Of a stretch of 64,000 nt of DNA, positions 10,746 through 16,088 are shown piece by piece. Origin of the DNA: Methylacidiphilum kamchatkense Kam1 (GTDB taxonomy: Bacteria; Verrucomicrobiota; Verrucomicrobiia; Methylacidiphilales; Methylacidiphilaceae); assembly GCF_007475525.1 (NCBI RefSeq), contig NZ_CP037899.1:310001-374000 (forward strand). The letters are read 5' to 3'. Below the pieces are notes generated by a model. It did no database searches. It had not been told where the DNA came from and saw only the letters and a program-made list of their open reading frames with translations. The stretch's first letter is position 1, and the number at the start of each line of letters is the position of its first letter. Made by a program: the position numbers and the translations under genes.

Positions 10746-11460
10746 TTAGTGACAATGTGCGCATGTCCAATAACTGCCCCCTCCATCCCGTATGTCGACA
10801 GCAGAAAAACCTGTCCCATATCTTAATACTATTTCTAGTTCTTCTTTGGCATAGAAATAATGCCAATGAGTTTTTTTCCCAGTAATTTGGCGTTTTATTT
10901 CCTCGAACCATTTTTCTTGATTCATTTCTTGAAGCACAAAACTTTGAAAGGAAAAGATCTGAAAAATGGCAAAGCCCGAAGGCTTAAGAAGGCGTTTGAT
11001 TTCAAAAAATAAATTATAAACAAACGGTTTAGGAATATGTTGTAGTGCTGCAACACTAAAGATAAGATCGATGCTTTGATCAGGAAGAGGGATATGGACT
11101 CCATCATAGTGAAGGAAGCAAAAGGGTGGTTTTTTTCTGTAGCCTTTTTTCTGCCTTAGCAATCATGTTTTGAGCAATATCTAGCCCTATAATAGATTGG
11201 GCAGGAGTGGAGTGGGCTAGCAATGCCCGATGCAGTGCTTCCATAATATACCCAAGGCCAGATCCAATCTCGAGGATGACGCCATTTGTAGGAAACTGGA
11301 TATAAGGAAAAAGATTGAAAGCAATATTTACATAGCTATCCGCCCGCTCAGTAAGTTTCTCTTTTGGAACTCCATCGTGAATGCGTGCTTCGACACTTTC
11401 CATAGACTCATTTGGATCATCCCAAACAGCAGCAGCTTTTCTTAAAAGTTCATTGCTCAT
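10746..11460 (-). CDS. SAM-dependent methyltransferase, interrupted by a frameshift
   Basis: Two overlapping minus-strand frames (11460-11104 and 11162-10746) make one class I methyltransferase of about 237 residues. The first carries the SAM motif ILEIGSGLGYIMEALH and IIGLDIAQNMIAKAEKR. The second continues with FLHYDGVHIPLPDQSIDLIF and LQHIPKPFVYNLFFEIKRLL, the expected motif II/III region. The switch falls at a run of seven T (11130-11136 on +, seven A in the gene). Removing one base makes a single frame. This is a sequencing error, a recent mutation or a slippage site. It resembles small methyltransferases such as UbiE/Methyltransf_11, and the substrate is unknown. Confidence 0.7.
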
Positions 11461-11598: not shown

Positions 11599-11684
11599 TG
11601 CCCTCGGCGGGACTCGAACCCGCACGAACCTATTCGGTTCACAGGATTTTAAGTCCTGTGCGTCTGCCATTCCGCCACGAGGGC
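11599..11684 (-). tRNA. tRNA-Leu(UAA)
   Basis: An 86-nt class II tRNA on the minus strand. The acceptor stem GCCCTCG/CGAGGGC pairs perfectly and the discriminator is A. The anticodon stem is CAGGA/TCCTG with loop CTTAAAA, giving anticodon UAA. A long variable arm follows, and the T arm is CGGGTTCGAGTCCCG. CCA is not encoded. Confidence 0.95.
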
Positions 11685-11812: not shown

Positions 11813-12292
11813 CTATTTGGTACTCTTTGTATTGAATGTGGCGTAGCGTTGCCAGGATTTGATTAGGGTGATTTTATCTGGCAGGGTTTGCAAAATCCTT
11901 TTTCTTGTCTCATCAACGTCAAGCAAGGGTTCTTTTCTTGCAACTGCCACTTCTTGAGTTGTGTATTTTTGAAATTTTCTTTTAGTCTGACCAAAATTCA
12001 AAATAAGCCAGTTTAACAGCTCTGCAAGGGCATCATCGGGTATTGAAGAAAAAGCAACCCCAGGAACTTGGATGACATATTTTCTGCCCTCAGGACTTAG
12101 GAGGAAAAAGTCGATCGTTTGGGCAATTTGAGGAGAGACCCCAGCGATTCCTTCTCCTTTTAATCCATGACAGCCTGCACAGTGAAGGAAATATAGTGCC
12201 TGTTCTCTTGGTATGGCTAACAACATTTGTGAGGAAATGGAAAAAAAAGCTAAAGCAGAAAAAAATACAATAGGCAATAAACTCCTCGCCAT
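11813..12292 (-). CDS. Monohaem cytochrome c of the methylamine dehydrogenase operon
   Basis: I place the start at the ATG at 12292. It has GAGG just upstream and opens a good signal peptide (ARSLLPIVFFSALAFF, cleavage after MLLA). The frame is open up to an ATG at 12367, which overlaps the mauA stop by 4 bp and is the alternative. The haem motif is CAGCH, followed by GLKGEGIAG. Downstream, where class I cytochromes have the Met ligand, it reads PGVAFSSIPDDALAELLNW with no Met, so the distal ligand is unclear. It occupies the place normally held by mauC (amicyanin), so it probably accepts electrons from MauAB (inference). Confidence 0.75.
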   Translation of the reverse strand: MARSLLPIVFFSALAFFSISSQMLLAIPREQALYFLHCAGCHGLKGEGIAGVSPQIAQTIDFFLLSPEGRKYVIQVPGVAFSSIPDDALAELLNWLILNFGQTKRKFQKYTTQEVAVARKEPLLDVDETRKRILQTLPDKITLIKSWQRYATFNTKSTK

Positions 12293-12363
12293 GTCCTCAT
12301 GGAAGATTCCATACCATTTAGAGGGATACCATCGAAAAGGCAAAAAGAAGGCATTTTTCCTAT

Positions 12364-12906
12364 TCATTCATTAGGAGAATCTTGAGCTATTCCTAAGATG
12401 GAAGCTCCAGTACAATGATACATCATGTTCGGTGCTCCAAAACACCAGATCGTATCGTTATTCCGGTTGATTTGATAAACAGGCATTTCTGCTTCATTGG
12501 TCTGTCGACAGTAGCACCTCCCGCAGAATCCCTTTCCACAGCAATCCCTATACGAAATCAGATACTGTTTGCCATCCTGTGGATTTCTGCAGCTTCCGAC
12601 CCAGTGGGTTGGAGAAGGGAAGGTTCCCGGTGGGCAGGCCGTGACTCCTCCGCCACAACAGCTGCAAAGAAATCCGTCGATACTACAATATCTCCAGTAG
12701 GAGCAGGAAGACTCATTGTTTGTACTCTCTGTCAGTTCCTTCGTTTCTGGATCGGTGCTTTGTTTTTGAGTGCGTTCTATGGGAGCTGGTAGGAGTTTGC
12801 AGGCTGCTCCCAAAAATAAAGCCAAAGAAGTCAGAAAGCCCCGCCTTGAACCACGTAGGGCAAGACGGCGTGACCAGAACTCGACAAGCCGATCGATCCA
12901 ATTCAT
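12364..12906 (-). CDS. mauA: Methylamine dehydrogenase light chain (TTQ subunit)
   Basis: A 180-residue precursor of the small subunit of the periplasmic enzyme that oxidises methylamine to formaldehyde and ammonia. A long leader with a twin-arginine-like stretch (RRGFLTSLALFLGAA, residues 21-35) precedes the mature chain. The two Trp that form tryptophan tryptophylquinone are identifiable by comparison with the Paracoccus subunit: W102 in SPTHWVGSC and W154 in DTIWCFGA. The matching Asp residues are D77 (CSIDGF) and D121 (SYRDCCG). There are 14 Cys in the mature part, against 12 in Paracoccus from memory. It overlaps mauD and the next frame by 4 bp on each side. Confidence 0.93.
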   Translation of the reverse strand: MNWIDRLVEFWSRRLALRGSRRGFLTSLALFLGAACKLLPAPIERTQKQSTDPETKELTESTNNESSCSYWRYCSIDGFLCSCCGGGVTACPPGTFPSPTHWVGSCRNPQDGKQYLISYRDCCGKGFCGRCYCRQTNEAEMPVYQINRNNDTIWCFGAPNMMYHCTGASILGIAQDSPNE

Positions 12907-13559
12907 GCTGGTTGATTGGTGTTTTTATAGTCTGGGGATCTCGAAAAGCCTTTTTTGGAAAGGGACAGCTCTAGGCCTTCCTTTGATTCTTCTCTCTGAT
13001 TTTGAGCATGATGGAGCAATCCTTCTAGCTGCTCTAAATTGTTCACAAGTCCTTTTGCCATAACTTTCCCTTCTGCGTCAAGATAAATCGCGTAGGGCAG
13101 GGCACTCACTCCGAAGGCAACCCCAAGTTCTCTTGAAAGGACATAAGGGAATGGGGATAGGAATGTGGAGGCTCTGTACTGTTGATGGGCAGCAAGACTG
13201 TCTCCATCACTGGCAAAGATGATATCTAAATTGTGGAAGGATCGACTCAAAGAAGCTACACCTGGTAGAAGCTTCTTACAAATTGGACAGGAAGGAGAAA
13301 CAAATAATAGGAGGCTATTTTTTTTTAGAGGATGTTCCCCTCCGATTCGTACTTGAGGTCGATTCTGATCCACGTCTTTTAATTCGAACAATGGAGACTT
13401 TTCCCCAACCTTGATTCCTCCCTGAAATGACAAGGCCCCTAGTGGGGCGATCCTTTCGTGAAGGATGCCAATCTGTCGAGCAAGGGCAAGAACAACGAGG
13501 GCTAAAAAGCCGATTGCCACCCACGAAAGAATAAGAGAACCAATAAGCAGTTCAGTCAT
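12903..13559 (-). CDS. mauD: MauD, thiol-disulphide protein for MauA maturation
   Basis: A 218-residue protein with one N-terminal membrane anchor (LLIGSLILSWVAIGFLALVV) and a periplasmic thioredoxin-like domain. The active-site motif is CPICKKLLPG (CxxC). Then come FASDGDSLAAHQQYR and the cis-Pro segment GVSALPYAIYLDAEG. MauD is needed to form the many disulphides of MauA. It overlaps mauE by 8 bp and mauA by 4 bp, so translation is probably coupled. Confidence 0.9.
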   Translation of the reverse strand: MTELLIGSLILSWVAIGFLALVVLALARQIGILHERIAPLGALSFQGGIKVGEKSPLFELKDVDQNRPQVRIGGEHPLKKNSLLLFVSPSCPICKKLLPGVASLSRSFHNLDIIFASDGDSLAAHQQYRASTFLSPFPYVLSRELGVAFGVSALPYAIYLDAEGKVMAKGLVNNLEQLEGLLHHAQNQREESKEGLELSLSKKGFSRSPDYKNTNQPA

Positions 13560-14094
13560 AAAGCATCTTTTTTTTCAATAAAGGTTGAGCAGCATTGGTA
13601 ATGATTTGGTTCCAACCTGAAAAAATGATGAAAAAAACAGTACCCATCCAAAAAGAAAATATTCGTTCCCAGAATGTGGGAAACCGAGGAGCTAAAGGAA
13701 GAAGATAGAGAAGGACCAAGATACTGCATAAAATAAAATTTCTAGCAAGAATCATCCATGAGTAGGCCTCTGTTGAAGGGCCAAAACAGCCGCAATCGAT
13801 CGTTTTATGTCCCCGAAGCAGATTAACTAAAACAGCTAATGAAAAGCTTATTAAAAGGCCGAGTGCTAAAGAAACACCAGCTTGCTTAGGGATAAAAAGA
13901 AAAGAGCCGGCTGCTCCCATTTCAAAGAGGAGAATGAGGATCGATAAAGGAACGACAAGGTACCTTGGCAAAAGTTGGTAGCCTTCTACGGATCGAGTAA
14001 AAGGAGAAAAATGGAGCATCTTTTGGATGGCAGAATACAGAAAAAGGTCAAAGAAAAAATACTCAATAGTATTTTGTAGGATGGGATTATTCAT
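13552..14094 (-). CDS. mauE: MauE, membrane partner of MauD
   Basis: A 180-residue integral membrane protein with four or five hydrophobic segments. The signature GHKTIDCGCFGPSTEAYSW carries the conserved CGCFG Cys pair of MauE/DoxX-like proteins, which are thought to hand reducing or oxidising equivalents to MauD. The gene lies 5 bp after mauB and overlaps mauD by 8 bp, matching the mauB-E-D-A order of methylotrophs. Confidence 0.88.
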   Translation of the reverse strand: MNNPILQNTIEYFFFDLFLYSAIQKMLHFSPFTRSVEGYQLLPRYLVVPLSILILLFEMGAAGSFLFIPKQAGVSLALGLLISFSLAVLVNLLRGHKTIDCGCFGPSTEAYSWMILARNFILCSILVLLYLLPLAPRFPTFWERIFSFWMGTVFFIIFSGWNQIITNAAQPLLKKKMLYD

Positions 14095-14099
14095 TTTCT

Positions 14100-15197
14100 T
14101 TAGCCATCATAACCTATAAGTAGGAGGGCTTCTTCTCCTAATTCTTCTATCGCTGCGGTTTTGGTTCCATTGCGAAGATCGTAAATATCCAAATAGGCTT
14201 TACGACAAAGACCGCAGAGTAAAGTTTCTTCTTTGGCTACGATGCGAATGGAATCTACCGGTCGGTCTAAAGCTATTTTTCTTTTGACCACCCCATCGGC
14301 TCTTCCAATTTCCCAAACTTCGGTTCCACTGTCCTTATGCTTTCCCTTGGCTGCTTTGTGCATAAGAATGTAAAAATATCTTTCCTCTGGATCGCAACTC
14401 AAAAGCTGCCAACCACAGGGTCTCCAGCCACTACCAGAAGCTATATTCCATTTTTGTTCCCATGTTGCACTTAATCCAGAAAGACTCAAAGACAAAAGCA
14501 TCCCTTCGTAGGAAACGAAATAGTATTGGTTTGTGCTTTTCAGATAGATCCCATGCTCGAATATAGGATCAGCCAAGGAAAAACCAGGGAAAATACGCTT
14601 TTTTTCTTCTACCTGACCTTCTTTGTTTAATGAAAGAAGCAATAGGCCTCCATCCTGTCCAATCATTGCAAAACGTCTAGTTTCATACGGATAAAGCAGA
14701 ACATAACCTGGAGTGGGAATCTCCATAACGAGTTTTTGTTGGTGCAGATCGACCACACTGACCGAACTAGCTGGGCTAATATTGCATACAAGAAGGAAAC
14801 GGTTATCACCACTCAATGCTTGAGTGTTTTTTTTAATCACACAAAGGAAGCGTTTTGGAGGGATTTCTATTTCGTGGAGGACCGATAGAGTTTTCGTATC
14901 ATAGACAGTGATTACATCGGTTCTAATGCCTCTTGTTCCTCTACTATAAAATGTTTCTACAGCATAGAGAAACTTACGGTCAGAACTAAGAACAATATTG
15001 CCCATATAGCCAAGATCGATCATTCCAAGAACTTTTTTCATTGGGACATCGATTAAAAAAGCCTTACGATTGGCTACAGTAAAGAGCTGATCTACTGAAG
15101 GTTGAGGAAGAGAAACAGTGGTGAAAGTTTCTATAGCAAAATCCTTTCTTCTGTCTAAGGTCCCAACTATACTCCTAGGATATATGTATTGGCCCAC
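14100..15197 (-). CDS. mauB: Methylamine dehydrogenase heavy chain
   Basis: A 365-residue beta-propeller subunit that pairs with MauA. Recognisable parts are KVLGMIDLGYMGNIVLSSD, DVITVYDTKTLSVLHEIEIP, the Cys-containing LLVCNISPASSVSVVD, SYEGMLLSLSLSG, WRPCGWQLLSCDPEERYFY and VDSIRIVAKEETLLCGLC. The first start found is a GTG at 15197, and no signal peptide is visible even though the enzyme works in the periplasm. The frame stays open about 15 codons further upstream before a TAA. The true start or an error in the N-terminal region therefore needs checking. It is the first gene of the mau operon. Confidence 0.85.
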   Translation of the reverse strand: MGQYIYPRSIVGTLDRRKDFAIETFTTVSLPQPSVDQLFTVANRKAFLIDVPMKKVLGMIDLGYMGNIVLSSDRKFLYAVETFYSRGTRGIRTDVITVYDTKTLSVLHEIEIPPKRFLCVIKKNTQALSGDNRFLLVCNISPASSVSVVDLHQQKLVMEIPTPGYVLLYPYETRRFAMIGQDGGLLLLSLNKEGQVEEKKRIFPGFSLADPIFEHGIYLKSTNQYYFVSYEGMLLSLSLSGLSATWEQKWNIASGSGWRPCGWQLLSCDPEERYFYILMHKAAKGKHKDSGTEVWEIGRADGVVKRKIALDRPVDSIRIVAKEETLLCGLCRKAYLDIYDLRNGTKTAAIEELGEEALLLIGYDG

Positions 15198-15492
15198 TGT
15201 CTTGACACCTAGGAATCGGTGGGGCAGGTTTCGTTCTTTAATACTTTATTCTACAACTCCTAGCTGCCTCCCTCTATTTTGGATGGTTCCAATGGAAGCC
15301 ACCCTCCATATTCTTAAAACAATTTTTCGTTCTGTCAAAAATATCTTGTTGGAAAAGTAATCACTGCTTTCTACTCACTGAGCTAGTTTAAATCCAGGTG
15401 CCCATCCTACCCTAAGGTTAGTTTCACTTTGGCTGAGTGAATAGAAAAAGATTGCTTTCCATTAAAATATTTGGCAAATAATCAAACCCAGT

Positions 15493-16088
15493 ATGGGTTC
15501 TAGATTCTCTGTTTATCTTTTGGTTGGCATTATCGCTTTTCTTTTTTTAGGTAGAACAGAGCAGCTTTTTGCAAAAGCTTCAAAAGAGCCTTGCAAAAAA
15601 ATTAAATCCTTTACTCCTCCATGTGCCAACAATGTCGTCATTGTTAATAAAAAAGAATTTGAATCGTCTTTACCAAAAAGAAGAAAAACATCAGGGGGAT
15701 GTGTGCTCGGGTAGTCCGCACATGCATTGAAAAACTTATTGGCAGACCATTAGATCGAAAGGATTATGCCAAGGAATATGGAGAAGCATTGGTTAAAACA
15801 GGATTATATAGGGAGCAGTCTCCACAAGCACAGCCAAGGGATTTCGATGTCCATATTCTTTATCCTAGGAAAAAAAGTCATTACGGACACATGGAGATCT
15901 ATTACAAAGGAAAATGGTATTCAGATTTTTATCAGAAAGCTTCCCTTTGGCAACTTTGGCCAAAGGAATATTCGAAGGTGAAACTTTATCGGCTTGCCTA
16001 TGAGAGAGTGGTTATCCCACCACAGAACTCTACCATTCAAAAAAGGAGCAAGCCTTCGACTCGCCTCGCACAATCTCCTGTGTACTAA
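15493..16088 (+). CDS. Secreted CHAP/NlpC-like hydrolase, interrupted by a frameshift
   Basis: Two frames (15493-15714 and 15699-16088) join into one protein of about 198 residues. The first supplies a signal peptide (VYLLVGIIAFLFLG, cleavage near LFAKA). The second supplies an MCARVVRTCIEKLIG segment with the Cys and helix typical of CHAP-like amidases, then the His strand YGHMEIYYKGKWYSDF. A run of five G (15694-15698) at the junction needs one more G to give SGGMCARVV in a single frame. The likely role is cell-wall or peptide hydrolysis in the periplasm. The family call rests on these two segments only. Confidence 0.5.

Follow-up and report, generated by a model that had tools for sequence, protein, structure and literature searches.

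A compact TTQ amine dehydrogenase operon in Methylacidiphilum kamchatkense Kam1, with an apparent AUA start for its heavy subunit and no evident MauG

Methylacidiphilum is a heat- and acid-loving, methane-eating bacterium, and the presence in its genome of genes resembling those of methylamine dehydrogenase (MADH) raises the question of which enzyme these genes encode. The window analysed here, to which all coordinates refer, is a stretch of 64,000 nucleotides spanning positions 310001-374000 of the 2,202,032-base single-contig genome of M. kamchatkense Kam1. The operon that it contains is real and has already been reported, and the name is only half supported by its anatomy. The original prediction, of a methylamine dehydrogenase operon in a verrucomicrobial methanotroph, holds for a TTQ amine dehydrogenase operon, which a 2008 publication (PMC2474590) had already described, but identity as a strict MADH is not established. 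In that paper, Hou et al. identified a five-gene operon, mauBEDA-moxG (Minf_1997-2001), in Methylacidiphilum infernorum V4, with a distant MauG homologue (Minf_1905) elsewhere in the genome; it is the same operon, with the same gene set, in the same genus. Growth of strain V4 on methylamine was tried and failed, and a reviewer disputed the substrate for this reason (PMC2474590). No later methylamine growth test, and no report of enzyme activity or protein from the operon, was found in the papers searched. Expression in strain SolV, tabulated in 2012 and 2017, was low (in the 2017 set 108-450 RPKM for mauA and 99-235 RPKM for mauB), in media without amines.

The operon lies on the minus strand and comprises mauB-mauE-mauD-mauA followed by a gene for a monoheme c-type cytochrome. 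The mauB-like heavy-subunit gene (14100-15134, stop codon included) encodes a beta-propeller protein of 344 amino acids from a proposed ATA start, and is separated from mauE by a 5-bp gap (14095-14099). A membrane redox-associated protein is encoded by mauE (13552-14094; Pfam PF07291, E 1e-24) and a membrane-anchored thioredoxin-like protein by mauD (12903-13559; Pfam thioredoxin-like, E 8.5e-8). Both proteins keep their redox cysteines, as C-x-C in MauE (Cys101, Cys103) and as a CPIC motif in MauD, which matches TIGR02661 with an E-value of 1.7e-47, albeit under the model cut-off. The mauA-like light-subunit gene (12364-12906; PF02975, E 7.2e-47) precedes that of the cytochrome, which carries a signal peptide (11813-12367; Pfam Cytochrom_C, E 1.9e-4). 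Overlaps join mauE to mauD (8 bp), mauD to mauA (4 bp) and mauA to the cytochrome gene (4 bp). Thus, the four mau genes had been placed correctly and on the correct strand, but the fifth gene was omitted, and the predicted overlaps of 4-8 bp apply to mauE-mauD and mauD-mauA but not to the mauB/mauE junction. A promoter scan gave no excess over shuffled sequence.

That the operon belongs to the TTQ family is evident from both subunits. The PDB matches of MauA are the light chains of MADH and of aromatic/aralkylamine dehydrogenase (AADH), and alignment with these shows that D77, W102, D121, W154 and T166 are kept, with D77 and D121 aligning with Asp32 and Asp76 of MADH; the claim that both TTQ tryptophans (W102, W154) and both aspartates survive is therefore confirmed. 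In addition to the two Trp and the Asp pair, MauA has 14 Cys following a twin-arginine leader (SRRGFLTSL), aligned with those of MADH and AADH light chains, in keeping with the minimum of six disulfide-forming Cys pairs expected of a TTQ-superfamily light chain. In the nearest named relative, Methylacidiphilum sp. Yel, MauA is 94% identical. MauB matches the heavy-chain beta-propeller family PF06433 (E 1.7e-43), its closest solved chains are AADH and MADH heavy chains, and an AlphaFold2 model from the ATA codon gives a complete propeller (mean pLDDT 89.6, first five residues disordered), for which the best Foldseek matches are MADH/AADH heavy chains (TM 0.86-0.91). Nevertheless, both subunits fall below the cut-offs of the NCBIfam equivalog models (TIGR02658, 164 of 454 bits; TIGR02659, 167 of 197 bits).

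The MADH reading, put forward by Hou et al. and again by the original prediction, would make this a true MADH that has lost its satellite genes, with methylamine as substrate, the genomic PF03150 peroxidase acting as MauG and the cytochrome replacing amicyanin. We consider this unlikely, although the light chain speaks for it. Around the second TTQ Trp, MauA reads T-I-W-C-F-G-A ... M-Y-H-C-T, where MADH has I-I-W-C-F-G-A ... T-Y-H-C-T, with I153, F156 and Y163 as MADH-like pocket residues, whereas aau-like light chains have N-W-C-[MLI]-[AG] at the same stretch. As the light-chain pocket is MADH-like, methylamine or another small amine stays a plausible substrate. The heavy chain argues the other way. 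Changing alphaPhe55 reportedly shifts MADH toward longer amines. The N-D-P-A-H-F segment, which we take to end in alphaPhe55 of Paracoccus denitrificans MADH, counting the mature chain (a channel role being given by the title of PDB entry 1mg2), is a gap in the alignment of all Methylacidiphilum MauB. The failed growth of strain V4 on methylamine also counts against MADH (PMC2474590).

The genome does encode one MauG-family protein, but this sole PF03150 protein, encoded at about 407.5-408.5 kb of the genome, has Met at the column of the MauG axial Tyr, and its strongest alignments are with bacterial cytochrome c peroxidases (E about 1e-101, compared with 1e-27 for MauG), which are also its closest PDB relatives. 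It is an ordinary Met-ligated peroxidase. Moreover, the same protein occurs in sister genera without mauA and mauB, and the draft genome of strain Yel (90 contigs, 99% complete) has the operon but gave no PF03150 match. The peroxidase scores under the NCBIfam MauG equivalog cut-off; this model was dropped as an arbiter because it also misses the MauG of P. denitrificans. Among 43 proteobacterial genomes with an operon of the same plan (genome completeness not stated), 13 likewise gave no PF03150 match. The apparent lack of any credible MauG in Methylacidiphilum was not found to have been reported before. The other mau partners were sought as well. Amicyanin is absent from the locus, and no PF00127 copper protein was matched in the 2.2-Mb genome, in a search that detected its positive controls; MauF is absent from the locus and, in a search run without a positive control, the genome gave no match to MauF of P. 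denitrificans. As a separate observation, Gammaproteobacteria OFTM106 (L126, the genome of L014) encodes both a BEDA-cytochrome operon and a MauG closely resembling its P. denitrificans counterpart (ILFYNKYT).

The gene order points to a different group of amine dehydrogenases. The comparison took in 80 loci that encode a relative of MauA, together with ten plasmid loci that were already annotated. In four of these (two Paracoccus, Methylobacterium and Indioceanicola), mauF and mauJGMN flank BEDA, and three of the four have amicyanin. In the other complete loci, small c-type cytochrome genes come after BEDA and the mau satellites are all missing, a layout common to Methylacidiphilum and about 85 loci, one of which is annotated aauB/aauA. 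The order B-E-D-A-cytochrome c is thus aau-type and not classical mau (mauFBEDACJGMN). The predicted classical order stands for BEDA itself, but mauF, mauC, mauJ, mauG, mauM and mauN are missing from the locus. Compared with the mau clusters of P. denitrificans and Methylobacterium, Methylacidiphilum shares the BEDA core, the TTQ residues and the light-chain pocket, but has none of these six genes, and its MauB lacks both a leader and the alphaPhe55 segment. With the aau clusters (P. aeruginosa plasmid LT969519.1; the Alcaligenes faecalis AADH structures) it shares BEDA, small c-type cytochrome(s) and the absence of satellites. The A. faecalis aau cluster presumably has the same plan, without mauF, G, L, M and N, and the monoheme c-type cytochrome gene following BEDA in Methylacidiphilum, likewise with no mauF/G/L/M/N, is what an aau-type system has. 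The operon cytochrome is of the same family as those downstream of at least 15 proteobacterial aau-like operons, with which it aligns through shared motifs (YxLxCxGCH ... GRxxxVxVPG ... YTxxEV). A tandem arrangement was observed in a Halieaceae MAG (L019, 5749-10635), with two heavy- and two light-chain genes, the first pair without intervening mauE/mauD.

A strict AADH, with tyramine, phenylethylamine or similar amines as substrates, would account for the layout and the aau-like cytochrome, for the 14-Cys light chain, as in A. faecalis AADH, and for the AADH heavy chains being the best PDB sequence matches of MauB. This reading is nonetheless improbable. The MauA pocket is IWCFGA instead of the NWC[ML]A of AADH-type light chains (N-W-C-M-A in the aau clusters), and MauB has no leader and is only about 29% identical to the heavy chains of AADH and of MADH alike; identity is 32-36% to uncharacterised gammaproteobacterial forms. 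In addition, the trees put Methylacidiphilum outside the AADH clade. In the MauA tree it joins the mau clade (support 97/93), as it does in the four-protein concatenated tree (99/98), but in the MauB tree it lies among the aau-like group (80/89), and placement inside AADH is not supported, with the MauA, MauB and concatenated trees disagreeing on attachment. The concatenated position beside the mau clade is a further point for the MADH reading and would favour an MADH-like ancestry. However, the tree program flagged the meeting of long branches (long-branch attraction) and unusual composition, and with the mau rows removed Methylacidiphilum is left as an isolated long branch without a near neighbour. 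We conclude that the operon represents a deep, separate lineage which, so far as sampled, is confined to Methylacidiphilum. Elsewhere in the phylum, two genomes (L006, L007) gave PF02975 matches that are weak and do not reach the cut-off (E 1e-4 and 3e-4); one of them has an in-frame TGA.

The start of the heavy-subunit gene is also unusual. The original prediction began mauB at a GTG at 15197, which can be discarded: its position is not conserved, and in relatives the frame is closed by a stop codon downstream of it. The only start-like mauB codon conserved across the five Methylacidiphilum genomes is an ATA (15132-15134, minus strand), preceded at a distance of 7 nt by a Shine-Dalgarno-like AAAGGA (15142-15147), with GAAAGGA kept in otherwise diverged DNA. 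In strain Yel, in a SolV-like genome and in a further Methylacidiphilum species (G072), there is no in-frame ATG, GTG or TTG between the upstream stop and the start of the conserved domain, and in Yel the ATA is the only one of the seven table-11 start codons found between these limits. Coding conservation begins exactly at the ATA, with 40-41 of the 60 nucleotides that follow it identical to two diverged genomes, against 17-18 of the 60 that precede it. Furthermore, among 24 conserved Ile columns in mauB, no other has ATA in each of the three diverged lineages. The gene therefore seems, from these comparisons, to begin at the very rare start codon AUA. An annotation or sequencing error behind the missing start is ruled out because five separate genomes agree.

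A hydrophobic leader is also absent from every Methylacidiphilum MauB, whereas nearly all other full-length MauB scanned have one (the exceptions being L024, cut at a contig end, and L096, which gave no score). A signal peptide supplied from another frame by frameshifting was rejected, as the aligned genomes have no conserved hydrophobic frame upstream, the V4-like genome being read in its own frame only. The AUA start and the missing MauB export signal, both conserved in the genus, were not found to have been reported before; the available part of Hou et al. 2008 (PMC2474590) mentions neither of them, and is likewise silent on the aau-like gene order, the absence of the Phe55 segment and the Met-type ligand in the MauG homologue. 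Non-canonical AUA/AUU starts are known elsewhere, e.g. infC and ccpN in Staphylococcus aureus, where AUA starts with a strong Shine-Dalgarno give about a tenth of the AUG yield (PMC13009471). The Methylacidiphilum start is alike in combining a weak start codon with a strong conserved Shine-Dalgarno, an arrangement that in S. aureus holds expression low, but here the gene is that of an enzyme subunit in Verrucomicrobia and the evidence is comparative only.

Decay of the operon, with the MauB start codon and leader lost and no active enzyme made, might be suspected from the lack of canonical starts in three of the five genomes, the low expression in SolV and the frameshifts in neighbouring genes of this genome, but it is very improbable given the strong selection on MauB, the gene for which is more conserved than any other in the operon (dN/dS 0.049 in comparison with the SolV-like genome). 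This gene is kept in each of the five Methylacidiphilum genomes, measures exactly 1035 nt from the ATA, without indels, in the four in which it was measured, and keeps the AUA and Shine-Dalgarno themselves.

The preferred reading is that of a functional TTQ-dependent primary-amine dehydrogenase of the compact BEDA-cytochrome c kind, which, with the following steps taken as a whole, is on balance probable. MauB would be translated at low yield from the AUA, placed by the strong Shine-Dalgarno, would fold in the cytoplasm, and would be carried out by the Tat system together with MauA, the bearer of the twin-arginine leader; TatC is encoded in the genome. Both AUA initiation and this hitch-hiking on Tat are inferences from sequence, and a novel cytoplasmic maturation route would also explain the missing MauB leader. 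MauE and MauD would form the MauA disulfides, and the two MauA tryptophans would be converted to TTQ by a route that probably does without MauG. In the periplasm, the alpha2-beta2 enzyme would then oxidise a small primary amine, releasing aldehyde and ammonium and passing electrons to the co-encoded cytochrome c, which is the likely acceptor, and not to amicyanin. Its use is likely to be the acquisition of nitrogen from, or the removal of, environmental primary amines, and not growth on methylamine alone. Participation of the cytochrome in TTQ formation is speculation, conceivable because it is the one extra gene common to all of these operons. A more ambitious proposal can be made only tentatively, namely that Methylacidiphilum carries a third lineage of TTQ amine dehydrogenases, with MauG-free TTQ formation and a leaderless, AUA-start heavy subunit exported on its Tat-tagged light subunit.

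To our knowledge, the MauG system is the only one for which TTQ synthesis has been worked out in detail. A two-subunit dehydrogenase without a credible MauG, here and in the 13 proteobacterial genomes, would need another route if the enzyme is active; if BEDA-cytochrome c enzymes carry TTQ, a MauG-free route therefore exists and, if this is true, MauG-independent TTQ formation becomes testable in a 2.2-Mb genome. The Methylacidiphilum version could also provide a simple test case for the control of expression by AUA and for export of a heavy subunit without a signal of its own. These considerations bear on the 2008 dispute over methylamine use, in that the missing activity may reflect the wrong substrate having been tested.

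The surroundings of the operon merit brief description. A tRNA-Leu (taa) gene lies immediately downstream of the cytochrome gene (11599-11684, minus strand). Further on, at 10746-11460 (minus strand), a methyltransferase gene is split into two overlapping frames; in strain Yel it is intact and encodes 237 amino acids. On the other side of the operon, at 15466-16088 (plus strand), another gene is split by a one-base difference beside a G run (about 15694-15699), for which either a genuine frameshift or an error in the sequence may be responsible. In four relatives this gene is intact and encodes a protein of about 200 amino acids with a signal peptide and a conserved CARVVRTCIEKLIGRP.
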